Part shown: positions 12,965 through 37,200 of the stretch, in pieces
Numbering within the stretch: position 1 is the stretch's first letter
How the letters are laid out: every line of letters begins with the position of its first letter
Translations under genes and position numbers: made by a program
The notes under the pieces: generated by a model
Told to the model about the DNA's origin: nothing
The model's database searches: none
What the model saw: the letters and a program-made list of their open reading frames with translations, nothing else
Assembly (NCBI GenBank): GCA_033807695.1
Contig: CM066301.1
Coordinates: 2,232,001-2,296,000, forward strand
Direction of reading: 5' to 3'
DNA from: Daedaleopsis sinensis
Taxonomy: Eukaryota; Basidiomycota; Agaricomycetes; Polyporales; Polyporaceae
DNA length: 64,000 nt

Positions 12965-14853
12965 GATCGCTCTGGTACCTGTTGGAGAACATGTGAGTGA
13001 GCTCGTCCCTGTAATGAGAGTATTGTTTGGCTAAACCTACGACAATATCGCACTTGGACGGCGTAGTACGACTGCTGGAGAGCTGCACACCTCAACCTGG
13101 TCTTGACCTGGTCCCAAAAAACCACTCAAAGCGCTCCCGGGCCATTGCCTTGCGAATCAAACACGAACAAACACCGCCACGTGCTATCAGCTCGTGACTC
13201 CCAGCTTGTCCCATCTCTGAGTCTTTGTCAAGTTCAACCTCGAGCTCATCCGGTCCGTTTATCGCAGACCGTGCTGCCATCTATGATAGCTCTTTGCTCA
13301 TCTGACTTGGCTCTGTTCTCGTAGTAGGCTTCTTGTGGTGGACCGACTCGTGCGGGCAGATTCGGACATGCTCTCCAAGTTCAACCATTCACCGCCTGCA
13401 AGCCCCCTGGCACTGGTCCTGGAGAGCTCGGAGTAGACTCCCTCGAGAATAGCGCGGCGTACATATACGTATGTACAGTACCCGACGCGCTTCTCCCGTC
13501 GTTCGACGCGCCGAGCCCACTGCCAGGAACGACCTGGAACGACGGGGCCGGCGTCTCGACATGAAAATTTCTCGTGGTTCCATATGTACGCCCACTATTG
13601 TCCTCCTTGTTTACGTGTGCTACCCAGGACCGAGGTTCATATATACATATACGCACACAGTATCCCCGGTCATCCAAGAATTCGCCAGGGCCGTTGACGT
13701 CGACAATCGAGTGGCCAGCCCTGCCGCTGGCGTGATTTGCCACTTGCGATTTGCGATTTGCGAGATCAGAACGTCGTGAGATTGTCCTAAGCGACGCAAT
13801 CGCAATTACGAGTCCCAGAATTCAACACAACGCCATAACCATCGCAGAGCGCGCGGAGCAAGCTTGAGGCTTACACTCTCCGGAGACCGGCCAGTCGAGG
13901 CGAGGCGGCCCGTTCGAGGGTGATCCGCCCCCGAGTGCGCGCGCCGTATAAGGCATTGTCACGGCTACTAACGCATCGATGACATTGACTGCCATACACA
14001 ACGGCCGACAGAGTTTGCTCCTGCTATACGGGTTGCCGGAGACTCCCGACCGCCACGGACTTTGAATTGTTTCCGCTCCCGTTTAACCAACGCGGCCAGA
14101 GGAACAAGAAACAACATTGATTTGGGCATTGCACGGCGACATACAAGCGAGACGCGGAGGATGGATAGCCGGATCGAAAGCAGAAGTGAGTAAGTAGTGC
14201 TCGGGTACAATGGCGATGTGATCCAAACGCCGGCAGACGGGGTATGTGGTTGAATCGCAGGAGTTCAAGTGTGTGCAGTACAGTATGAATGTGATATGGA
14301 GCTTGAAGACGACGCACGAGACGAGACGGGTATAGTAAGTGCGGATAGCAATCAGACTACAAGGACGTGCCTGAATTTTGTGGTCTAATCGAAGTGAAGC
14401 AATGGACGTCGACAGGAAGCGCAGGGTTAGCCGCACGTACGAGTCGGCTCTATCCTTGCTTCAGGAATCAGGCTACATCCCAGGCTCCGACTCTGGCTCG
14501 GGAGAGGGCTCTAGGACCACATGCCAATACCCCCTGTTCGGGCTGTTGGCGCGGGACTCGATCGAGGTGTTCGCCAGCCCAGTCTCTATGAACAACGTCG
14601 AGGGCGAGGCAGGTTCGCCACGGCCGCCCGAGGCCGATCCTGCACGTCGGAAGACTAGCGTCAGCGTGTGCGGCGTTGTAATAAGATGAACGTGCATGGC
14701 ACTGCAGCTCACCGCGGGCAACGTTCGAAGGACCCGCCTCAGGCACACCATCCGGGCTTTGGCCCCGCAGGCTGCTCTGGCCACCTGCGCAAGCAAACGT
14801 CGACCAACTCAGTGCTGTCCACCCAGTACCCCTCCTAGAACGACGACGCACTG
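12965..14853. other. Gene-poor stretch upstream of the SRR1 gene
   Basis: I find no gene model that holds together. Features seen: a short TTGCGAT repeat (about 13746-13762), and several ORFs of 60-140 codons on both strands with no recognisable domain. The plus-strand ORF around 14402-14689 (MDVDRKRRVSRTYESAL...) has a slightly protein-like composition, but I cannot extend it by splicing. Confidence 0.35.
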
Positions 14854-15539
14854 CTACGAGCTCCTGCCTGCGCCCCGGCATCGTGGTCTTCGGACTGAGG
14901 GCGTTGTTGAACTTGTTCGTGCGTGGGGGCTCTGCCTAACAGACGCCGACAAACGGCGGCGCGGCGGGACCACCTCTTAGTCACAGACTCGGACCGCCGC
15001 GCGTGGATCGTGGGGGACGAGGGGGCGGCCGTACCTCGCGGCTCGGGCCGGCGGCACTCGAGATCCTCCTCGACGCAGCGCGCACACGCCGCGTCGCCCT
15101 CGTTGCGCTCGCAGGCCACCCTCGTCGACCTGCTGCCGGTGCCAGTGTCGCCGTCGATGTCGGACATGGCGTGCCAGCCAGCATGATGTGTGAGCAGCAG
15201 CAAGACATACGACGATCCGGGCACGCGACTCACCAGGCCTCGCAGGCAGTCGTGCATTGTACCCTGGTTGGGAACCCGGCGGGGCTGCCGCCGCCGGCCG
15301 GTGTCCAGCTGCTGCACTCCAGCTGCTTCTTCACGCACCGCTGGCACGCGCCCGCGCCCGCAGGCACGTCGCACCTGACTGGATGATGGGCGGGGGAGGG
15401 CAGAACGCGTGTGCAGGCGGTGGGTTGGGATTGGGGGCCGAGGACGCGTCACGACTCGTTCGGACTGCAACTGTGGCGGGCACGCACCTTTTTTGCGCCG
15501 GCAGTTCCTGCAGGCCACCCCGGAGCGAGGCGGGGCCAT
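14854..15539 (-). CDS. Twin Zn2Cys6 (Gal4-type) zinc-cluster protein A
   Basis: Four exons (15539-15488, 15378-15234, 15132-15035, 14975-14854) give 138 aa with two complete zinc binuclear clusters. Cluster 1 is CRNC-x6-C-x8-CQRC-x6-C at residues about 10-41; cluster 2 is CEAC-x6-C-x8-CARC-x6-C at about 65-96. Both have spacing 2-6-8-2-6. The linker is 23 residues and contains one extra Cys. Intron 1 cuts after CRNCRRKK in phase 1 and intron 2 splits the second Cys codon of cluster 2 (TG|C). Such clusters bind CGG triplets in fungal regulators, but there is no room for the usual middle-homology regulatory domain. The C-terminal Arg/Ser tail (exon 4) is the least certain part. An ACGCGT lies just upstream at about 15573. 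A DNA-binding role is inferred. Confidence 0.7.
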
Positions 15540-16973
15540 TGTCAATGTGGGTGTACGTGGGCGACGGGACTAGTACGCGTCTCGCAAGAGACGGCTCGCA
15601 GGGCTGAGGACGGACTCGGAGGGCGTGGGGGGTATGGGCTGGGGCAGCCGCCGCATGCTGCGGTTATATGGCGAACGGGTATGGCGAACGGCGACGGGAG
15701 AGAGGAGATCGGAGGATCCACGTGAAGTCTAAGCAACGCGTCGAGCCAGGAGGGCGGGTCAGGGCAGAGCGTCCGCACTCCTCAGAGGAAAGGAAGGGAA
15801 GCGTCCGAAACGACGGCGAGAAGCAGCAGAGCCAACGACTGATACGGAACGTCCTAATCGAGGGCGACGGCAGCGAGCGCGGTCACCTCCCACCAATCCG
15901 CGGAGAAGAGGACATCGGCCGCCCGGGCACCCCCAAATCGTTCGATGGGGATGCTCGTACGGGTGAGGCTAGGTAAGGGGGGCTGCACGTCTGCTGTATC
16001 CGGATCCAAAGGACGCCGTCCGCAGCACGGCGGTGTTTACCAGTACACACCCACCGCAATCGTCCGTGACGTGCCGAGGACGATACTTCCTCCATCGAGG
16101 AGGCCTATCGTTCTAGCCACCAGAGCACGGGCGGTGTGAAAAACGCGATGCGGGGGCGATGGAACGACAGCCCGAGCCTATGGGGTTTGGGCACAATAGG
16201 CACGGCCGCTCGAGCACAAAAACGAAGTTCCCTAATTGTGCGCCGCGTACGTACGCGCCCGTCGTGAAATCCCTGTAGTTCCATGCCTCCCGTCGCCCCA
16301 CGCAGGAGCGCTAGCCGCAGACACAGACACGCCAGGCAGGCCGGATCGCTATAGTCTAGATGTCAGACGGGACCTCGAGCGGACGACATACACTACTATG
16401 TAGCTTCGCGACACCATCCGGCCGCGATGCACGTGTCGTGTCCAGGGTCTTGCCGTGTGGTCTTGAAACGCGTCGTGCTGGTGATACTTACGTCCTAGTC
16501 TTGAGCGAGCGAACGCGCCTTGTGCCACTGCGTGCTCCGGATGTGCTAATGAGATCCGCAGATGAAGGAAGGTGGCTCGCTTGCACGGATTGCAACGCCA
16601 CCACGCCCAGAGTCGCAGAAGAGCCCATTACATCCCCCACACGGACCGCGTGCGACGACGGCAGGAGTCCAGACATGCATTCGCTCCCACCAGAGACCAA
16701 TACGAGCGCAACATCAAGGGATGCATTGCGCCGAGTCCGCGAGCGCTAACGTGCGAGTCTTCCCAGAACCCCAGAACTAGCCTCAGGCGACAACGACTGA
16801 ATGAAATCTGGAAACTAAAATAATTCGAGGCCAATATGAGCATTCATTCGTTGGATGTGACGAGAACAGAAGAGCACAGTTCTGGCCCAATGCGGGCAGG
16901 CCATGGCTGATCGTTCTCAGTAAAGGGTCTTGGGAGAACATGTCAAACATAGAGTTTGTTCCCAACCGGAGGA

Positions 16974-17700
16974 TCAGTGGAACGTCAATGACAATATTAT
17001 TGATGATCGATTTGGTCGGCGCAGCGACTCACCCGTCCGTCTACCGCCGAGCCGGCTTTCGAGGGAAGGGACAGCTTGCGGCGCAGGCGGAGTCGCAGAG
17101 GACTGGCCCACTGCGTCCGGCCCTGAGGGGGTGGCGATAGCTTGAAATCTCGACATGTCCCGCTTGCGGGGAAGCAGAGAAGGTCGCGCTGATGCGCCGA
17201 GCGTCAGAGGTAACCAACGAACGGATGACGTCCGGTGAGAGCGCGTACCGCGAGAAGCGAGCCTGGGGGGGCGCGCCCCAGCCGGCGGACGCCCGGTGCG
17301 TGTAAGGCCCAGCGTTCTCCCCCCACCCCTTCCGGTATGGAGCAAAGACACGTTCTCGAAATCCACCGAGGAACAGGAACCACGCACGGCACGCGTCGGC
17401 AGCGCTCCCTCAGAACAGGCAACGCGATACCTACGCGAGCCGTGCTAGCCATGCCCGCGAGTGCCACGGACCGTCCTCGTCGGGAGCCCAAGGAAGCGCC
17501 TCCGCGGGACGTACCTTCGGACCTTCGGTTCTGGGGAAGCTCGAGCCCCCGTTGACGACGGTGCCCGTCCACGCCCCATCGGCGATCGCCTTCATCTCGC
17601 CTTTCATCTGTCTTTTCATAGCGCGACAGGCTCCCAGCAGCCTATAGAGTGTGCCCTCCGGGGCGCGGCGCGCGATGGACGAGTCCATCTGTGTTGCCAT
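16974..17700 (-). CDS. Weak two-exon gene model, unknown protein
   Basis: Exons 17700-17515 and 17408-16974 join in frame through a 106-nt intron (donor GTACGT, acceptor TTCTGAG) to give 206 aa. The first exon has a helical, protein-like look (MATQMDSSIARRAPEGTLYR, then GACRAMKRQMKGEMKAIA). The second is basic and Ser/Pro/Arg-rich. No family is recognised and the acceptor is poor. This may be a chance ORF in GC-rich DNA. Confidence 0.22.
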
Positions 17701-17841
17701 CTATGAAGCTTCTCGCGCGGAGAGAAATGAATGGCTGGGACGTCGTCTGCAGTGCGGCCGGCCCACCGTGATCGATATCGGCCGTTAATATAGCTATAAG
17801 CAACAGTGCGAGTGCACGGGCGGACGCGGCGGAGGACTCGG

Positions 17842-17992
17842 AGGCAGGGCGGTCCTGGGTGTGATGCGTGAGTGCGAGTGCGAGTGCGGGGGCTGGGCGA
17901 GTGCCGGCGGGGAAGGCAGGGCGGTCCTGAGTGTGGAGCGTGAGTGCGGGTGCGGGTGCGGGTGCGGGTGCGAGTGCTGGGCGAGTTCCGAC
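17842..17992. repeat. Imperfect tandem duplication with internal GTGCGG microsatellite
   Basis: Two copies of a unit beginning AGGCAGGGCGGTCCTG and ending CTGGGCGAGT follow each other (from 17842 and from 17914). The copies differ mainly in the number of GTGCGA/GTGCGG hexamers, two to three in the first copy and five in the second. On the minus strand they would read as repeated PAPAPA and HTQDRPA segments, but no gene is supported. Confidence 0.75.
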
Positions 17993-19992
17993 GTCCAAGA
18001 TGTCGCCAGATGTCGCCGTACGCGCGCCGTGTGGGATAGCGGGAGCGTAAGTGCGTGCCTCCACATGCAGCATGTCGTAGCGACACGAGGCTGCTAGTGG
18101 ACGTCGCAGAGGACTGCTCGTTCTTCCAACTCAGGCTCCGGGTGGACGCCAGTGTCGTCATCAGGAAGGCATCGCTGTGGACGAGTCCAGAGGGCGCACT
18201 ATGAGAGTGGTAGTCGGGAATCAGCGCGTGTCTGTCCGTCAGTAAACCTACCGCACTACGAACGCGAACGCGAACGCACGAATCGCATCGGACACGCTCC
18301 AGCTGCACTGGCTGCTCGCCGATGCCCGATTACCACCAGAGCATGATCCTGACTGGAGCCGGACGGCCTTCCGCGGTTCCTTCGCCCGATCGCCCGTGCG
18401 GGTATATCAGGCTGCTGCTGGCAGTTCCGCCAGCCCTTCGTTTCGTGTTCATCATCGAATTTTCATCTCGCGTGGCAGAAATAACAGGCCCGCAGCGGTC
18501 TTCCGACGACCTCCACTGGCGGCGTGTCCCGCCGTCGCCTCGCGGCCCCTCTGCACGCGCACTACACTTGATGAACTACCGTCGAAGGCTCGGGTTCAGT
18601 CAGCGCGCGAATGTCCGAAGTGTGCGAGCCCGGGACGGGGCGGGGGGGAGCACATACCGCACGCAGCAACCGCCGCACACCGGCGATTATCGCGCTGGTG
18701 CATGCGACGGCACGCTGCGGGGCTACGGCGGGCGCACCTGCGGGTTCTAACTTCTCTGTGACGGCGAACCGGGAGGGCCTCCAACCTTGAGCTTGTGCGG
18801 AGGCGGAGGGTGGATGGGAGAAGACGAACCGTGTCCGCACTTACGTTTCCATTGGGAACCTGGGTCGGCTAGGCTGACCATCAGGTACGGACGAGTCTGC
18901 CCCACCCCTTGGCGCCCGCTCTTCAAGTTCTGCTGATAGATAGCGATCCCGGCCCGGCCTCTCCAGTCACTTCCTCCGAGACGTCGAAGCCCGACCTTCC
19001 TCCACCCCAGCAGCCTCGGGCTTGCGCTCGACTTTCCTGCTGCTCTGAGCTCGAGCACTGTGCCGGGCTTGTCGAAATATCCACATGTTCGCAGAGCAGC
19101 AGATGCAGATGCACACCAGCACACCAGCACACCCACCTGGAGCGCGGAGCGGCGGGCGTTCTGCCTCTCGGAGGACGGTGCGCCCACACGAGACAACAAT
19201 AGCGATGCCTTTGTTCTCAATGCAGTCCTCTAAGACAACCTCGCCTTACTTTACGTGTCCCGTCGCGAACTCCAGCTGCTCGCCCCCCCTCCCAGCCGAT
19301 GCACCTTAGATGCGGTCTCCCACACTCCCCTCGCATCATCGGCAGACACCCTCTCGAGTCTCGAGTCTCGAGCGTCGAGTGATTCGTGAAGCGTGCAGCC
19401 CCCGCTCGCCAAGCACTGCAGCCCTCCGCGTCCGCGTCCGAGTCGTACATAACCACACCCGCCCCCCGCAGACACAAAGGGCTCCACAGGGCCGATCGAG
19501 CTGCACCGCACGGGCCCCGCGTCCGCCTCCGCGTCGCGGGAAGGGCCCGGGTGGCACTGGCACTGGCCCCTGGGTCACAAGCACATACGTAGGCGCAGCG
19601 CACGCACGGATCGGGTGACGTCGACGGCTGATGGGATGGATCGATGTCGAGACGTCGACTGTGCGCATCTCCCCCAGCCCAGGCATATGTCCACATACGC
19701 ACAACGCGGCCCAGCCGCACGGACTCGGGCGGAGCGAAGCTACCAACCGCCTCGGCAGGCGAGGTCGAAGTTCGAACGCGAAAAAAAACACACGCACGCA
19801 GGAGAGAGTTCGCGCTTTGTCAGCCGGGAGGGCCCCGCCGTTAATCTCCTGATCGGCGACGCATCGATCGTCGCGGACTTTATCTGCGCTCGCGCGGGTC
19901 GAGGGAAAGTCTGCGATTACAATTGACATTGACGACGGGAGGCGGCGGACGCGCACAGCGATGTTGGCGGTGGGTGTGTATGTGGGTTTGTA

Positions 19993-20044
19993 CACGATAC
20001 GATGCGATACGATACGATGGGACACGATACAATACGATACGATA
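19993..20044. repeat. GATAC pentanucleotide tandem repeat
   Basis: About ten imperfect units of (C/T)GATA with interruptions (ATGCGATAC, GGGACACGATAC). It lies in the intergenic region downstream of zinc-cluster gene C. Confidence 0.8.
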
Positions 20045-20299
20045 GTGGGGGGACCATAGAAGGACGACCGAGACGATGCCAGATATTTACTCACGACGAG
20101 GCCACCTCGCCGGCGAGGTCTGATTAGGGGGCGGGGGCGGGGACGGGGGCGGGATTAGGGCGTGTAGGTAAATACCTAAGACGCGCGCCAGCCCCGGCGT
20201 GAGCAAACGCACAGCGAGCCGTGAGAGAGAGAGAGAGGCAGGGGACGTACGGACGAGACTTCCAATTAGATGCACAACGCATGCACGCGGGGCTAGTGG

Positions 20300-21203
20300 C
20301 TAGTATTCCATGTCGTCCTCGGACGCCAGCACGACGGACCAGTACGAGCGCGGGCTGCTCGCGGCCGACGGGGGCGTCGTCGGACGGCCCGACTCGGGGA
20401 ACGCGTCGATTTGGAGCGACGGCCGGGAGGCGGGTGCTTGCGCGGGGTTAGAAGGCGCTGCAGGGCGACGGAGATGGGGTGCGAAGCGGGGTTGGCGCAG
20501 GGATCTCCGACCGACGGTGGACGACTCACGAGCGTGCCCCCGCTGGCCTCGCTGCGCCGGGGGTGGGGGGTGCGACGGGCCGGCGACCGCCTGGGCCCGC
20601 GCAGTGCTCTCGGACGACCGCGGCGCTGAGAGCCGGGGGAGCGTCGAGGAGCCGCGTCGAGACGGGGGCGAGGACCGAGGGCACGGGCGAGAGGGAGGGG
20701 GAGGGGAAGGGGCGTGCATGAGTGTCTGCTCGAGGAACGCGCGACAACGGCGGCGGGGCACTGACCTGGCTGTGGGGCGGCCCGCGAGCACGGCCGGTTG
20801 TTCCTCTCGCACTCGCGGCACGCGCCGTCCGGGACGCGCGACGGCTCGCAGCGCGACTTGGCCTTCTTGCTGTCGGACACGCCCGTGGGCCGTCGGTGAG
20901 CATACGCGACGCGTGCGCGCGATCGGACACGGACGGACGCCTACCATTCGTCGCACGCGCTGCGGCTTACGTTCCCCTCCGGCCACTGGCACGCCAGGCC
21001 CTTGGCGAGACACTTCTGGCAAGAGTCCGTCGCGGGCTCCCGCACGCACTTGACTGTGGCAGGCAGGCGTCGTCGGACACGGTGCGGCGGGGGGAGAAGG
21101 AGGACCGGGACGTACCCTTGCTTTTGGCGCAGGGGGTGCAGGACTTGCTGGTGCGGGTGTGCTTCGGCGGCTGCTCGCGCGACTTCCGGAGTATGCCCAT
21201 CAT
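20300..21203 (-). CDS. Twin Zn2Cys6 (Gal4-type) zinc-cluster protein C
   Basis: Five exons (21203-21116, 21053-20945, 20869-20766, 20625-20530, 20457-20300) give 184 aa. After a basic leader come two clusters: CTPC-x6-C-x8-CQKC-x6-C (residues about 22-53) and CDEC-x6-C-x9-CREC-x6-C (about 65-97), joined by only 11 residues. Intron 1 falls after CTPCAKSK in phase 1 (restoring Val), and intron 2 splits the second Cys codon of cluster 2 as TG|C, exactly as in genes A and D. The tail is Pro/Ser/Ala-rich and ends SYWSVVLASEDDMEY, an aromatic-acidic end that could be an activation or docking motif (inference). No coiled coil or fungal-specific TF domain is present. Exons 3-5 were placed by frame and splice signals. 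Confidence 0.75.
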
Positions 21204-23618
21204 GGTCGGCTAGAGGAGAGGAGGAGGAGTGGGGGGACGAAATGAAACAGGAACGCCGACGCGAGGGATATATGGCTCTCCATGAAGCGGGGGGACGGAG
21301 ACGACTATCGAGTTTGGGGACCCCGATCTGAGGCACCGCCTTTCCCAGGCTCGCGAAGGCATTTAGAGAACTGACTTCGCTCGGGCCTCTGGTTTGATGG
21401 CCTCCTGTCCTGGAGAGCGGTGGGAAAACAAACAAGGTGGGCGAAGAGCCGAGTCAATGTCAATTTCGTCCCGATCCCGTCTCGCTCACTGGGGCCGCGC
21501 GGGCTCCAAGGAGGAAAGGCGGCATTGGGCCGTCGCCGTCGCGCCTTTTGGCAACAGAGCGCACCAGGGGGGGCTGCCGTCTCGCACCGAACAGATGCAG
21601 GTGCGAGAAGCTCCGCCGAGCTGCGCACCGTCGCGCAAGCAATTCATACAACGAAATGCCGAGCCCAGGGAGGGCAATGGTGGGTGACATGGCGATTGAG
21701 GAAAGATAGGGCCCGCTGGCGCCCATCACGACACTGGCACGCGCACCGGGCCCCCATCGCGGCCTCCACACGACATGGATCGGGACTTTTATGGAATCGC
21801 ATGCACGCGCGCCCCGTCTCGCAAGAGGAACACCGAGCATGCGCAGAGCCTGTCGCCGCCGCAAGGGCGATGGCGGGCTCTGTGGGCAGCGCGACGCGAA
21901 GGGCATGACCGTTCGGGTGCAGTCACACACTGAACAGGCGATTAGCAGTACCGGCGGGCGAGCAGGCAGCACGCGCGATGCGCCGCGACGTTCTGAGTCC
22001 CCGGTGGCAGCTGCGTCTGCTCGGGCGCCGCGCGGGGGGAGGAAAGGATGAGGCGTCGGGGGGCAGCGGCGCTCCCGGCGCACGGACCCACGCATCGGGC
22101 GCGCCGCCGGGGGAGGCTTCAGATCATGAGATCCAGCGAGCAGGATCTCGCCGACGACGGGGATCATGGACACAATATGGGCGGACAGCGAGAACGCTTG
22201 AACTGTTGGGGGCTGCCCAATGGCGATTCCGCGCCCGCTGCGTGTACGGCATGTCCGACAGACAGCTGCCCGCGGTCCCTGCCCCGCAGCGCAGCGCGAA
22301 CGAACGAGCTGAGCCAGAGCGTGACAGTTTGTTTCAAATCGACGTCCGCGCACGCACGACGCAAGCTGGGGACCGACGCGCTAAGGGGAGACGTCACCGA
22401 CCGAGCACGCACCGCGTCCCCGCAGAGCATGGCGTGCGTGCGCGGGTCTGGGCCGCCGCGCGTCGTGCCGTTCCAGTCGGGCACCGTCCGCGGCCGCCCG
22501 TACAGTGTACAGTGCACACGTCCGGCGGCGCCCCTTCGCTTCGCTTCCCCAGGAACTTCACGCGCGCACGCAGCGCGTCACCCGTATGCGTGTTCGTGTC
22601 TTCCCAGACACGGCCGCGTCGCGAGTAGCCCTGTCCGCGCTGCATGCAAGACGCGGTCGTGCGTGTGCGTCATCGACGTCGCCGGCAACGAGACACTCAC
22701 ATTTCTCGCACTAAGTATGAAGTCGGCCATGTCGAGTCACGACGGCGGCGCGGTCGCGATCGCGCTCGACCTGTGCCTTCGCTTCGGGACGGGACGGCAG
22801 CTGCAGGGCGTGCCAAAGCCAAAACGCGACGACGAGACGCATTACGGCCGGTGCGGTCGCGGTAGGCGAGACGGTCTGGCCGCGTCAGGGTCGTCTGGTG
22901 CAGCCGGAGACGTGTTCCCATGGCCGCGCGAGTCACCCAGACAGTTCCCGACGAGAAAGGCTCCTGGCGCGACAGGAAGAGCGAGCGCGACGAGGGGGAT
23001 TCCGAGGGAGCGCAGGGTTGGGGGGGAGCTGGGGGGGAGAGCACAGGAGGATTCAGCGAACGGGTTTCCACGCGACAGATCCCCTAGACGCCAGCGCGAT
23101 GAGGATCGGCTCGGAATCTGGATCTCCTCCGCGGGCGGCTATCGCGACACTCCACTACCGCCGGCAGCCCTGAGGGCTGCTAAACCGTGCACCTGGAAGG
23201 CACGCGGGCTCGTCGGCGAGCACGACGCGCGCAATATCGCCTACGCCCTCCCATCTGCAATTGCGCGTCCAGAACCCCCAGATCTGTACGGGCGGCCCAC
23301 CTTCGCGCATACACACTTAATTGCTCGTCGTCGGCGATCACGGGAAGCCCGACTCGACTCCGTTCGCGAAACGGGCACGGGCGCAGGAACGCAGGGCAGA
23401 TCATCTCGTCACCGTACCGTACACGCTCTACAGTGGCATCGTTCCCAAGAAAGCTCGGAATGTAATCCAAGTACACGTCGTGTCCGCCGTCGCCACAGCA
23501 CGCGCGTCCCCCGCAGCACGCACGCGCACGCGCACCAGATCTCCCCAACGAGATACGCTTTTTCGTCTGACGTGCGCCGTCCTCTGCGATCCTTCCGCTA
23601 ACACCACCGGGGTCAGAC
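21204..23618. other. Region between zinc-cluster genes C and D
   Basis: No complete gene is supported. The longest open frame in the window (plus strand, 22048-23601) lies here but looks like a GC-driven artefact. On the minus strand, Cys-bearing fragments resembling zinc-cluster halves occur near 22240-22290 (VCRTCRTRS), 21815-21930 (RCSSCETGRAC) and 22700-22720 (CEKC followed by a GTGAGT). They cannot be joined into a full module and may be relics. Confidence 0.35.
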
Positions 23619-24323
23619 TCACGGCCTGATCAGCACGACGTCCAGGAAGGGCGTCCGGCGCGGAGACGTCGCCCCGTCCGACGACGGGCTCAACGGCGAC
23701 GGCGGCGTGTCTATCACCGAGCGATCCGCCTGTCAGCAACGGCACGACAAAGTGGAGACAGAGAGAGGACCGACGGACCTGCGTTGTCGTTGTCGTTGCC
23801 GTTGCCGTTGCGGGTGCCGGTGAGCGTGCAGGGGAGGCCGACACGCGCACAGTAGTGGCACGGGCCCGCACCCGCTGCCGACGCGCAGCGCATGTGCGCG
23901 GTTTTGCTGCCCGACGCGTCGCCATAGCCGTCGTCAGCCACAACGACGTCGACCGGCGGGGATTGCGGGGCTCACCAGTTGTCACACGGACCGTTGCCCG
24001 CGGCGGCCGTCGTCGCCGTCGCGGCGGGGCGTTCGCAGCACTTGCTGCGTTTCGTGCACTCCTCGCAGCTCTCTGCGCCTGGGGGCACCTCACACCTCAC
24101 TGTTCGGAGAAGGTTGTTAACACCGTCGGCGGGCGATCGAGGTGCGGAGTGGAGGGGTAGTATGGAAGTGGGGCTGGAAAGAGGTGGGTGTATGACGCGT
24201 CGACTGGCAAAGAGAAGCGCGTCGAATGCATACGCACACCGAACGCGAAAGCAGCAGCAAGACAGAGACAAATGACTCACCCTTGCGGAAGGAGCACTCC
24301 GTGCAAGCTTTTGGTTTGGCCAT
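23619..24323 (-). CDS. Twin Zn2Cys6 (Gal4-type) zinc-cluster protein D
   Basis: Four exons (24323-24281, 24099-23976, 23906-23779, 23710-23619) give 128 aa. The protein starts directly with cluster 1 (MAKPKACTECSFRKVRCE...): CTEC-x6-C-x8-CEEC-x6-C at residues about 7-38. A 16-residue Ala/Thr-rich linker follows, then cluster 2: CDNC-x6-C-x8-CHYC-x6-C at about 55-86. After a GNGNDNDN microsatellite-encoded stretch the tail is TPPSPLSPSSDGATSPRR and ends FLDVVLIRP. Intron 1 (phase 1 after CTECSFRK) and intron 2 (TG|C in the second Cys of cluster 2) match genes A and C. The two clusters fill most of the protein, so any function must be close to DNA or metal binding. Family and architecture are clear; targets are unknown. 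Confidence 0.78.
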
Positions 24324-25278
24324 AGGATAAGATAGTCGTCCGAAGGGGGGCAGGAACGATTGTGCAGCGGCTGCAGGAGCCCAAGCCCCGGGAGAGGGAT
24401 GGCGAGCGGAGGGATGGGGGAGGGGCGCGACGGGTGGCGATATTTATTAGCATTGACAAAAGCGTGCGGCAGCGCCGGGGGGGCCTGCGTCTTCTTTGAT
24501 ACGATCGGCCGAGATTCGAAAGAGGGCGCATGAGGACGTCTCCGCCGCCGCATCCAGGGTCCCCAGCGCGTGCCACGGGCACGGGCAGAGCGGCGAGATT
24601 CGAGGGAGATGGGGCAACGGACGGGGGGGGACGTGCGCTCTGTTGGCTGTCTGGTACTCGGACGGGCGTGGCGTTTCCGCAGGATTCCGCCTACTTCGTG
24701 ACGCGCGCCTGGCAAGTCCGCCGCGGCCGGTCCCTGTGTCCGCGTCGCAGCTGGAGCAGGCGGCAGGGCGGCGAGTCGACGGCGACGACGGTTCGGAATA
24801 TCCGTCCTTTTGCATTCCAGCCGGCGACGATTAGAGTTCAATTCTTCCCAGATCCGGCTGGCCCGCGTGAAAGGCTAGCGGTCGGCGTGCGGGAGGGTCT
24901 CGGACCATTCCCCGTCCGCCGTCGCCCTCGGTTCGAACAAAAGCGGCGGTCAGTAGGAACATACCGAGTGCAACGTCGATCGGCGCCAGCCGCGAGCGCG
25001 TAGGCCGCAATACAGTCGCGTCTTGCCGAAAGTCAAAATAGTCGCGCGGCGGTTGTAGGCGGCCCAGGGCGCCCCCAGCTGCTTAGTTCAAGACACCTAT
25101 GTGCTCGCATATAGGCTGTGTCTCGCAGCGGCTCCAGAGTGCCATCGCGGGAGCTTGGCGCCCTGACAGCACCGCCCAGGCGCGAGAGAAGTGCGGTAAG
25201 TGGGTGATGATACAACGCCGCCGTGCGGCTGGGAAACCTGTTGGTAGTACATCATCAAACGTTGCAGCTCGCGGCTGC
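24324..25278. other. Upstream region of gene D and 3' flank of MCT-1
   Basis: Nothing I can support as a gene. Short GC-rich ORFs overlap on both strands. One minus-strand frame (ATG at 24815) contains ACSSCDADTG, which resembles a zinc-cluster start but lacks the following Lys/Arg-Cys pattern. Confidence 0.35.
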
Positions 25279-26067
25279 TTACAGCTGCTGAACCTTCCAC
25301 AAATCATCTCCGAGATACGTCACGGTCTCGACGCCGATGCCCTTGTTCACCTGCTTGATCTCCTCCGTGCCGAGCTTGGTGATGCCGATGGCAGCTGCGT
25401 GCTCCTTGCCTTCGGCGTGGATCGCCACCGGCGTGTTCGCGGGCAGCGCCGCGGACGCAGGAGGGAGGTCGCCGCCAGCGGACGTCAGGCCGGGGCACAT
25501 CATGTGGGCGCCCGCGAGCAAGAAGCGGATCGCTCCTCTGTCCACACGCACCGTGGGCAGCACGAAGGGGTCTGGGGTGTAAGCCGCGCGCTGTCAGCTA
25601 GACTCAGGGCGGTAATCTGCATCAGCAGGGTAGGGCAGGGGGGGCACGCACACTTGTGCAGGAGCCTGAGCGTCGGGAAGAAGGGCCCGTCGAAGTGCTG
25701 GAAGAAGAGCGGCTCTCCGTGGAGGGTGTAGATGGAGATGTGTTCTCTACTGCGTCCGAGGAACGCCGCGTCCGAGAGGGGGGCAGGGCGGCGGTACGTT
25801 CGTCATCATCATCGCCTTCCGGCGATCGAGGCACACGATGTGACTGACCATTTGACGAGCGTGAGCGACTCCTTCTTGGGCCAAATCTGCTCGAACGTCT
25901 CTGGCGCGATCTTCCATTGGGCGAGGATGTTCGAGCGGATGGACCGCTGCACGGACGTCTTGACGCTGACTTGGCCCGACACGTCTGCCGAGGGCTGGAA
26001 TCTGCGGCAGCTGCGCTTAGCCGAGGGACAACACGTCGGACGATGTGCGGGCGCACTTTTTGAACAT
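25279..26067 (-). CDS. TMA20: MCT-1/MCTS1 (Tma20) translation re-initiation factor, PUA domain
   Basis: Four exons (26067-26035, 25994-25849, 25749-25652, 25571-25279) give 189 aa, close to the roughly 181 aa of human MCT-1. The N-terminal MCT1 domain includes SIRSNILAQW and WPKKESLTLVKCREHISIYT, followed by PLFFQHFDGPFFPTLRLLHK. The PUA domain begins RVDRGAIRFLLAGAHMMCPG and ends GIGVETVTYLGDDLWKVQQL. The protein pairs with a DENR/Tma22-type partner on 40S ribosomes to recycle tRNA after termination. Exon 1 codes for only 11 residues and the first intron, as placed, is just 40 nt with a GCTAAGC branch-like site. The 5' end is therefore the least certain part. Confidence 0.92.
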
Positions 26068-28116
26068 CTTTGGGACAAGGAAGCAGCTCGAGTATCAGAA
26101 CAGAGGGGAACAGGCGAGGGCGAGGATGGCGGTCGATGCAGGCAGATGATGGCGGTCAGTGGCTGAGATGCTATCGCCCCGCCCGCCCCGGAGTCGGAAT
26201 AAACCGATCGTGAGATCACAGAGAGAGCCGCTGAGTTGGATAATTAGCGTTAGATTCGTTTAGATCTGGCGGAAACCACAGAGGCCAAGTCGCTCCTTCC
26301 TAGTCCTTCCTCCCTCCCAGGCCGACAGCCTTCCGCCGCCCGCCGCCCCGCAGTCGCGGCTGCCATTTCAAATCGCATCCTCGGATTCCAACAATGAATA
26401 TCCACCGAAACCCCATCCCATATCCTCGGTCTGCACGCCTGGCGGGCCCTCCATTCTACCCCCCTACGCCCGCTCGAGATCCTGAGCGCTGCCTGATCTT
26501 CACGGCTGTCACGTCTGTTGGAAGACTGATTTGACTGATGCTTTCCACGCACGCACGCACGTCGCGAGTGCCCGGCGCAATCAGCGCTCACACGCACAGT
26601 TGGCAACTCAGAAATCGTCCACTGGTACCCGGAAGACGAGGACCTGGACGCACCGCGCACACCGGTGTCCGCGTCGCCCTCCCAGAGTGCGCTAGGGAAG
26701 GCCGCCAGCGTACGACACCTCGCCGTTCTAGATTCGCTTCGGGCCATGCGCATCTTCCACGTCCACACTAGCCGAGCTTCTGGCGTTTCAGCCCAGGGCC
26801 GGCCGGCGTCGGACCTCGTCGGACTCACCATCTGGGAGCCCAAATGGGCAGTTGCCAGTTGCCTGCTTTGCAATTGGTGCACTATAGCCAGCGAGGGCCG
26901 GCTTAGGAAGGCTGTCGCTCTTTCCTTCTATGGACCCACATAGCCTCCAACGCGAACCACTTGGCGCGGGCCTACCGTTCCCGTGGCACGCCCCCTCCTC
27001 CTCCCTCCTCCTCCGAGTCCTCGCCGGCAATAATCGCCTGACGTGCCTGGGTGCTGTCGTCGCACGCATCATGCGTTTCAGGGTCCACCCCGCAGCAGAT
27101 AACGCAGCGTGCGGCAGCACAAGCCATGTTTCAATGCCGACTCCCGAGGACCGACGGGCACCTGGCACCCCGGCCTCCGAGGAGTCGTCGCCTGGTCGAT
27201 CTCAGTGCGCAGCGCGCATCGCGCAAGACTCGAACTCGGACCCCTCGAGGCACGCCCCCCCTCGCCCGCGCGTCCGCGCCCGCGCTGCTCGCGTTCCTGC
27301 TCGAACTTGGAGCCGCAAGGAGCGGTACTGCATCCATATCCGGGCACCATCATCATAGAAGCTGTGGCGCTGCCCGTGGTTGGCGCACGTGGCACTGTCA
27401 TGATCACAATGTTGAATGCAGGTGTACGTGATGCTTATGCGCCCGGCACGCGCCGCTCGAGTCAATGAACACGCCTCGTTACATCATCGGTTTCCTTGTG
27501 TGGGACCGTGAGTGTACGTGCGCGCGTGAAGGGGCATTCAATCCTACTAGACCCTTAGTTCGAAGCAGAGGACCCTGGCGACGAGCGACAATTGACAACC
27601 CCCAACAAATTGGGGAAGATGCGAGTGGACACGAGCACGTCCGTGAAGAGGGAAATGGGACCATGTCGATGTCGGGACGTGGAGCAGAACCAAGCAGCGG
27701 CGACGTTCGCCGCGTTGCGCCGCGACGACCCGCGCCGTCGGGCGTGCATCGCTCGAACGAGCAGTACAAGGTAAGAGCAGGACATGGAGCAATTGATACA
27801 TTACTTCTCTCGTATTCCTCTGCCGGAAGCTATTGTTACATGTGTGGTAGATGCGGGGGAACAGCGAGATGCGATAGCAAGAGTACACGGCTGCTGACGA
27901 ACGAGGCGAGAGACCGGGCGAAGAGCAAGCCAACGGGACGACAACCGTTGGCTCGTTTGCCACAACCAAAGGGTGTGGAGGGGATGCATGAGGACCAAGG
28001 GGATGGGAACGAGGGAATTGGTGACGAGAACGTGGAAGGGGATAGCAGACGGGCAAGTCGTCGCGAAAACTGAACGTCTATCATACAGTGACAAGATAAG
28101 TCATGCGGTCCGTGTT
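26068..28116. other. 2-kb stretch between MCT-1 and CRM1 without a supported gene
   Basis: The plus-strand frame ending at 26943 contains a protein-like segment (NSEIVHWYPEDEDLDAPRTP at about 26602-26661, then LAVLDSLRAMRIFHVHTSRA). It could be a last exon following the acceptor near 26597, but no upstream exons were found. The plus-strand frame 27465-28073 lies antisense to the region beyond the CRM1 3' end. No repeats of note. Confidence 0.35.
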
Positions 28117-34285: not shown

Positions 34286-37200
34286 CTATGGCATCCCAAA
34301 CTGCGCCTGTTAATACAACAATCAGTAAACATTCCATAGTCAAGTACAGAGACAACCACTTACTCGTACACTCGGCTTTATGACCCAAACCTTCTTCTCC
34401 TTGCATTTCTCACCGACCTCCCGAACCTTTGCCTCGATCGCGTTCTTCTTCACCTTGTGGGCCTGCAGTTCCCGATGCACCGTCTCAACGATACCCTGTA
34501 GACTGCTCGTGGCGAGCTCGTTGACACGGGCGAGCAAGAAGGGAAGATGGGCCTCAGGAAAGGGGTTCTTCGGAGCAAGCGCCGGACGTTTGGCAACCGA
34601 CGCGGGGGATGCATCTGAGCTCGTACTCGTACTTGATGTTAGAGCAGATGACGACTTCGCCAGGTGTGGCGGTAGAGCGGGTATGGCGAAGCCGTCTGCA
34701 GTATGGTTGTGACTCTGCCCTGAACCAGAAGCGGAGGTCTGTTGTTCGACCGGTTGAGAAATGTACTTGAATGGATCGATAGGGTGTGGTGTATCTAGAG
34801 CGCGGTGAGGAATCATATACGCGTCAAACATGGGGAGTTGCGAGGAGGGGACATACCATTGAATAGCTGTATACGGTAAGCCTTAAACGGCTCGTACGCG
34901 CACCGTCCGACTGACGTCTCCCATTCCGGACCTTTGACGAAGGGTACGAGAGGGATGACGACCCGTCTCTTCTTGCCTGCATTGCTCTTGTCCTTCTCTT
35001 CTTTCGCCTTCCTCTTCCCGTTAGCACTTCCTGGAGTCGGAAGATCGAGATCTGGAAAGCTAGGAGAAGCCGGCCGCTCTTCTATAGGCGTGCCGGGATC
35101 CTCAACCTCGTCGTCGTCAACTAACCAACTATCCAAGTCCGAATCTGGGTCTTCGTCACCATCGCCTTCTTCATCGCCATCCTCTACCACGTCGTCTGCG
35201 TCACCTGCGTCTTCGTCTGCCCATTCTTCGCCGGAATCGTAGGTGTAGTCCACTTGAACAGCATCGCGAGCGAAAGGAGTACGAGGCCCTATGTCGCGTG
35301 AGTTTCGCGTGAATGTGCCGAAGTAGCCCGGTCGGGCGTCCTCGTGAAACATGAAGGCCTTTGCGGGCAGTGCCTGGCGGTCTCGGAGGATAGCGAGCAG
35401 TCGCCGGACTTCGGTGTCATCTCCTGCAACCTCTGCCTCAGTGAGTTGTGACATGAGTCCTCTGACTGATACAGGGTTGTATGTCTTGTAGCCAGTCGGT
35501 TGCAGGGGTCGCCGTGGTGAATTGAGCCCCGCGGGTAGACGAGCAAGAATAACCCGCAACCAGTCTGTGACACGATCAAATATACAGGCAAGTGAGATGA
35601 CGGGCAGGACAAACCTCGAGGAGTCATGCTATCCAGATCCTGTATGTCTTCCATCACCACATCCTCGGGCCCAGTAGCTTCTTCGTCATCGTCAAGCACT
35701 ATGACATTTCCTTCTGTCCTGCTGGCAACTCTTCGCTTGCGTTTATCGCGCGAGTTACTTTCACGGAACCAGTTCACTGGGGCCAGTTCTGCGTCCTTCT
35801 TGATCGCAAATGGCCTGAAAGTTCGCTGGAAGTCTGACTGAGCGGAAGTGGGCCCAGGAGAGCCCGTCTCGCTATCCTTAGGAGACTTGCCCTTGGACGG
35901 CGACGCAGAAGCTACACCCTTCGCCTTTCCGAAGAAGTTCGCCATTATGGAACGCGATTTAGCCTGAGCGGCCTCAACTTTCTTCTCCCGTTCCGCTTTG
36001 GCAGCCTTCTTCTCGAGACGTTCCTTCTCCTGAACATTGTGAGCGAGCACATCACTGGGATCATTCACAAGTCATGACATACCTTTGCTACCTTCTCAGG
36101 ATCGACAGACTTCCTGGGCCTCCCCACAGACCGCTTCTCCTAAAATGTAGTTGAGTTATGATCAGGCGTGCACACGTAATGTTCACATACTCCAGCATCG
36201 GTCTCCGAGGTAGAGGTCTCTACAGTCGTCTTGTTCTGAGCCAATGTAACAGGTTCGTCGTTGCTGAGGTCTATGACAGTGGCCCCCGGCGGCGCACTTG
36301 TGGCCTGACGGAGATCTATTACGCTTGACCCCGGCGCACCCTTTGAACTCTTGACCTTCGCAAGGGCCTTGGTGGAGTTCTTGACACCGAGGATAGCTAC
36401 GCGTTCGTGATCTGATAATGAGTCGAAGAGCGTCTTCACATCATGCTTCGCCTAACAACATTGGTCTTGTCAAGCCATGGTGTTAATCGACCAAGTAGGA
36501 CACGTACCTGCTGCCTCTCCCTCAACCTGTTGTCTGCTTTCTCTTTTGCAGTCTTTGGCAGCCAGTCTCGACACGCGTCTGATAGTTCCCAACGCCATAC
36601 AAGCCACGAGGCAGGCACTTTGCCACCCTCCCCGGGGCTGTCTAATCCATAGTTGACACGTTTCGCGACACTCTTGATCGCGTTTTCCAGCGTGTCAAGC
36701 GGCAGCATGGCGCGTATGTCGCTATCGTCGTCCTCATCTTCGTCCACTTCGGGTAACAATTGGTGTTGGATATGCTTCGAGAGTGCTTGTAGCGTCTTGT
36801 CGCTGCGGCATACCCATGAGACAATCTGGGGGGTTCTATGCAGGTTGCATGAAATGTGGCGAGGCGTACCTTTCGTGTGCGAGCTTGGCAATTACTGGTT
36901 TGTGCTCATCGGGAACCGCGGTCAATGGCGGCAGTTTTGACGACAACCTTTCCTCCAGCATTACCCGAAACTTGACAATCTCTGCAGGACATAGGCTCGC
37001 ATGGCTCACATAAATAGAGGGGCGATGCGTACTCACCTTGTAACGTCTCCGACATCTTCTCGAACGACATCGTCTTCTGCTTAAATGCAAGTTTGCCATT
37101 CTTCAGCTCAACCAAAGACGTCTTTGCGACTTTCTCTGCTTGAAATCAGCGAGATGACACGTATAACCACGCCCGTGCGTTCTCACCGCTGAGCGCGCCG

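Follow-up and report, generated by a model that had tools for sequence, protein, structure and literature searches.

Three neighbouring genes of Daedaleopsis sinensis predicted to encode compact proteins with two Zn2Cys6 clusters each

Three genes, here called A, B and C, all lie on the minus strand at about 14.4–24.4 kb of the window (the whole 64 kb stretch of DNA that was analysed), and our spliced models bear out the claim, made in an earlier reading of the sequence alone, that each of them encodes two complete Zn2Cys6 clusters. Near the predicted C-terminus of A (226-aa model), B and C there is also a motif, SP-x(1-4)-[YF][WL]-x-VVL, that the sequence-only reading had overlooked. Zn2Cys6 proteins are the main class of regulators in fungi and their choice of site is usually attributed to the geometry of the dimer. 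On the features described below A, B and C may be paralogous, expressed, compact Zn2Cys6 transcription regulators, a proposition whose chances we put at about even. The genes and their C-terminal motifs are as follows.

14473–15539, minus strand: gene A, preferred spliced model, 226 aa, last two exons resting on the tail motif (exons 15539-15488, 15378-15234, 15132-15035, 14931-14713 and 14639-14473)
14835–15539, minus strand: gene A, shorter alternative spliced model, 131 aa, without the tail motif
14512–14544, minus strand: tail motif of A, SPNRGYWHVVL, pattern match
20300–21203, minus strand: gene B, 184 aa, spliced model and Daedaleopsis nitida P0001 across all junctions (exons 21203-21116, 21053-20945, 20869-20766, 20625-20530 and 20457-20300)
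20327–20356, minus strand: tail motif of B, SPRSYWSVVL, pattern match, with a relaxed form in all six full-length named orthologues
23619–24323, minus strand: gene C, 128 aa, spliced model, last acceptor picked for the tail motif (exons 24323-24281, 24099-23976, 23906-23779 and 23710-23619)
23631–23666, minus strand: tail motif of C, SPRRTPFLDVVL, pattern match

Gene models and paired clusters

All modelled introns in the three genes have GT...AG borders. The closest annotated match to gene B is P0001 of D. nitida, with 88% identity, and the model of B follows it over all four splice junctions. Two intron positions recur in all three spliced models, both as originally described: intron 1 follows CxxCx4 in phase 1, and intron 2 interrupts the codon for the second Cys of module 2 (TG|C). 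The end proposed earlier for gene A (14854) did not survive, since the TAG at this position belongs to a third frame. The most likely end of gene A is 14473, as predicted by a model that uses an acceptor before 14931 and one extra intron, and this end is preferred because the acceptor shifted by four bases together with the extra intron yields the tail motif; in the 131-aa alternative exons 1–3 are unchanged and exon 4 (14935-14835) starts from the acceptor four bases upstream. The last exon of gene C is likewise supported because reading through it gives the tail motif, so that for both A and C the 3′ end is a model resting on the motif.

All six modules (A1 and A2, B1 and B2, C1 and C2) show the CX2CX6CX5-12CX2CX6C pattern of Zn2Cys6 proteins (PF00172). 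The spacing is 2-6-8-2-6 in A1, B1, C1, A2 and C2 and 2-6-9-2-6 in B2, C1 terminates in CC, and linkers of 23 (A), 11 (B) and 16 (C) residues were obtained from the module ends, in agreement with the earlier values. The figure of twelve Cys holds for the two modules together but not for the whole proteins (14 in A, 12 in B and 13 in C). Whole-protein scores with the Pfam Zn_clus model were 52.5 (A), 32.2 (B) and 38.2 (C), all above the 21-bit cut-off, and at a lax threshold (E ≤ 10) two Zn_clus stretches were found in each protein. Single-module scans, which covered B1, B2, C1 and the half-module of Polyporus arcularius discussed below, placed B1 (22.1) and B2 (21.4) above the cut-off and C1 (17.6) below it. 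A search for strict half-modules in an open frame (C-x(5,12)-C-x2-C-x6-C) gave six in the window, all of them in A, B and C and forming three same-strand pairs, one per gene, compared with a mean of 0.9 half-modules and zero pairs in 100 second-order Markov resamples of the window. A looser pattern adds a few unpaired plus-strand matches near 36798 and 51430, which look like chance.

The surroundings of the genes (13000–27000 of the window) are GC-rich, with wide gaps between A, B and C and housekeeping genes on both sides. The GC content per 2 kb is 0.63–0.67 at 14–26 kb (with the exception of 16–18 kb, 0.62), compared with 0.50–0.58 at 28–50 kb. Among 20 chosen ORFs that were scanned the flanking matches were to SRR1 (near 12.5 kb) and CRM1/exportin (28–31 kb), with a TCP-1 chaperonin, CAF-1 subunit A, an RFC-like ATPase, Hsp70 and anthranilate synthase farther out. 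The long plus-strand ORFs at 21997-23598 and 25087-25728 are without a Pfam match.

Tail motif, orthologues and family origin

Each of the three genes contains the tail pattern once; there is no further occurrence in the 64 kb window and none in 200 resamples of 13–27 kb, although it should be noted that the pattern was composed after A, B and C had been viewed, so that this count is a measure of rarity and not an independent test. Independent support comes from the full-length named orthologues of B, all six of which have the motif in a slightly relaxed form. The motif is aromatic and hydrophobic, with acidic residues next to it in B, and the tails of all three proteins are rich in Pro/Gly/Ser; it is likely to be a partner-binding site, a small, conserved candidate for interaction in proteins that are too short for much more. 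Upstream of it (20300–20420 of the window) gene B and its orthologues have in common the sequence TPxS-x-ASSPRS, in which two Ser/Thr-Pro pairs are possible phosphorylation sites. A nine-residue activation-domain pattern matches the tail motif of B and of five of the six full-length named orthologues; it is absent from P0005, A and C, and we place no weight on it.

The search for orthologues of gene B gave seven proteins, one from each of six named polypore species (three checked as Polyporaceae and three that we presume to belong there) and P0007. Both clusters are full in D. nitida, Fomes fomentarius and Earliella scabrosa, whereas P. arcularius, Lentinus tigrinus and Cerioporus squamosus have module 1, the tail motif and the first three Cys of module 2, the half-module of P. 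arcularius scoring 11.1 bits as Zn_clus. Since the second half of module 2 is gone from three orthologues, this module appears to be dispensable in some lineages. P0007 is an unspliced reading that ends before module 2; its gene matches the Fomes protein, both exon pieces compared being identical. It has extra residues at the position of intron 1 and a W at its end, where the Cys codon would split, and from these both introns are expected at the same places in its gene. Between gene B and D. nitida the identities are 20/21 in the N-terminus, 26/30 in module 1, 11/11 in the linker, 31/31 in module 2, 46/53 in the middle (3 gap columns) and 32/36 in the tail (2 gap columns). The 31/31 identity indicates that module 2 is strongly constrained in this pair, yet it is half lost elsewhere. 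The linker of B and its orthologues is 10–11 residues long. At the equivalent of Gal4 Lys18 module 1 has Lys in all ten aligned rows, and in module 2 the nine rows that reach this position have K (five), R (three) or H (one).

The two intron positions and the tail motif support the proposal that A, B and C arose from one gene through duplication, and because the position of intron 2 is common to all three the ancestor would already have been a tandem gene. A and C are each about one third (~35%) identical to B. Outside the Cys residues and loops B2 and C2 are alike at 6/16 positions, and A2 is like A1 at 6/16, B2 at 0/16 and C2 at 1/16. Exon 3 of gene A (15119-15035 of the window) is thus nearer to its own module 1 than to module 2 of the sister genes. 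This likeness pulls against a simple duplication of A, B and C; exchange within A may have rebuilt the exon from module 1, or the likeness may be chance in a small sample. Orthologues of A or C were absent from the best 7992 candidates by shared words (the alignment included both genes). The genome searched comprised 51.6 Mb in 24 contigs. Protein searches of it with A, B, C and the tail of B for a fourth copy recovered A, B and C themselves and weak single-module or unclear places, and none of eight weak loci inspected (two of which are one place) carries a tandem pair. A Zn_clus screen of the genome (E ≤ 10) gave 63 matches, at a low sensitivity that recovered one of the six modules of A, B and C. 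Seven of the Zn_clus matches (six plus-strand and one minus-strand) lie within about 24 kb of contig C9 (1293490–1317865), and in the five that were read (1291500–1310500) the second halves are near-identical, with a RCDGxKPxCxNCKRR-type stretch followed by a YxxxPRRRG-type one. This array was rejected as a source of relatives of A, B and C, as it belongs to a different family and is single-cluster as far as read.

Possible modes of action

In the mechanism that we propose both clusters of each protein would bind zinc, module 1, in which the counterpart of Gal4 Lys18 is always Lys, would read a CGG-like half-site, module 2, held on a short linker, would let the same chain make further contacts with bases or backbone, and the C-terminal motif would recruit a co-activator or other partner. 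Contacts of this kind from the same chain would make a coiled-coil dimer unnecessary, and it is plausible that two half-sites are recognized by a single chain. Lys18 of Gal4 contacts the guanines of CGG (PMC5559640), and AlcR and TerR are described as binding DNA as monomers, aided by a run of basic residues ahead of the cluster (PMC4360782). Gene B has 7 K/R/H within the 21 residues that precede its first Cys, while basic residues ahead of module 1 are few in A (1/9) and C (2/6). By a crude coiled-coil test the longest Pro/Gly-free stretch after module 2 is 14 (A), 16 (B) or 8 (C) residues, and since none exceeds 16 residues a long coiled coil is unlikely in any of the three. Zn_clus is the sole Pfam family found in A, B and C at E ≤ 10, with no large fungal regulatory domain. 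The solved sequence closest to A is Ppr1 (1pyi, E 9.4e-6), which matches module 1; module 2 of gene A gave weak matches to Gal4 (best E 0.036). Among 48 spacing arrangements of CGG pairs in the upstream regions of A, B and C the best reached 0.0067 uncorrected, and none survives correction. An AlphaFold prediction from P0001 and five orthologues was too low in confidence for use (mean pLDDT 46.1, pTM 0.21); each module contains some of its short helices.

The contribution of module 2 is where the alternatives diverge. As A2 carries a net charge of −4 and the Lys18 equivalent of C2 is His, module 2 may make no contact with DNA in A or C. A rival reading is that DNA is bound by module 1 only and that module 2, stabilized by zinc, has a structural role or one in protein interaction and can decay freely, in keeping with the acidic A2, a C2 that is without Lys/Arg, the low score of the P. 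arcularius half-module and the truncation of module 2 to its first three Cys in three of the six named orthologues of B. We consider it rather unlikely, as the recognition positions of B2 still have K and R, the comparison of gene B with D. nitida shows module 2 to be the better conserved of the two modules, and the half-losses could be a single event in related species. The same weakness of A2 and C2, which are degraded at recognition residues, would suit a situation in which B is the only working gene and the duplicates A and C are silent or in decay, as would the modelling of their 3′ ends on the motif and the failure to find an orthologue of either. However, that search scored just the 7992 candidates with the most shared words, and despite the low identity to B both genes have kept the twelve cluster Cys, GT-AG introns and open frames, together with the tail motif, so that decay of A and C seems to us quite improbable.

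The small size of the proteins, with no fungal regulatory domain detected by Pfam at E ≤ 10, could also mean that they are inactive in themselves and compete with larger Zn2Cys6 regulators, as decoys or in a dominant-negative way. A tail motif would be superfluous in a decoy that does no more than bind DNA, and the presence of this motif in all three paralogues and all six full-length named orthologues weakens the idea; moreover, a larger regulator with the same cluster was not found in the genome, albeit by weak searches. We regard decoys as very improbable.

Relation to known Zn2Cys6 proteins

The six-Cys spacing and the Lys18 equivalent of module 1 are shared by A, B and C with Zn2Cys6 regulators such as Ppr1 (1pyi), Leu3 (2er8) and Gal4 (1d66), members of PF00172. 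Unlike proteins of this type A, B and C have two clusters per chain of 128–226 aa, and in contrast to the classical Gal4 type no regulatory domain was found in them and a coiled-coil region is not apparent. As described in PMC4360782, AlcR and TerR resemble B in the basic stretch before the cluster and offer a precedent for dimer-free binding, but they have one cluster per chain and in TerR the second half-site is taken by a second molecule. The two-cluster architecture itself cannot be claimed as novel, as ascomycete proteins with two C6 domains are already published: CCG_02279 and CCM_00582 (Tolypocladium and Cordyceps) are described as predicted proteins with two Zn2Cys6 domains plus DUF3468 (PMC6471507). 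In having two such domains in one predicted protein they are like A, B and C, but by this description they are set apart by spacings of 2-6-5-2-6 and 2-6-6-2-6 and by DUF3468 (PMC6471507), which Pfam did not find in A, B or C at E ≤ 10. For short two-cluster proteins of basidiomycetes, searches of an open-access library gave no description, although one may exist.

We suggest, tentatively and as a possibility short of an even chance, that polypores have a family of mini-regulators, each a short chain whose two unlike clusters, on a fixed linker, would together read a composite site for which other Zn2Cys6 proteins need a dimer. In one lineage they would have multiplied to an array of three genes whose second clusters diverge, and in another they would have been cut back to one and a half clusters. 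If this is true, a natural two-cluster chain with three divergent copies and half-lost relatives would provide a test of the part played by the second cluster and the linker in the choice of site.
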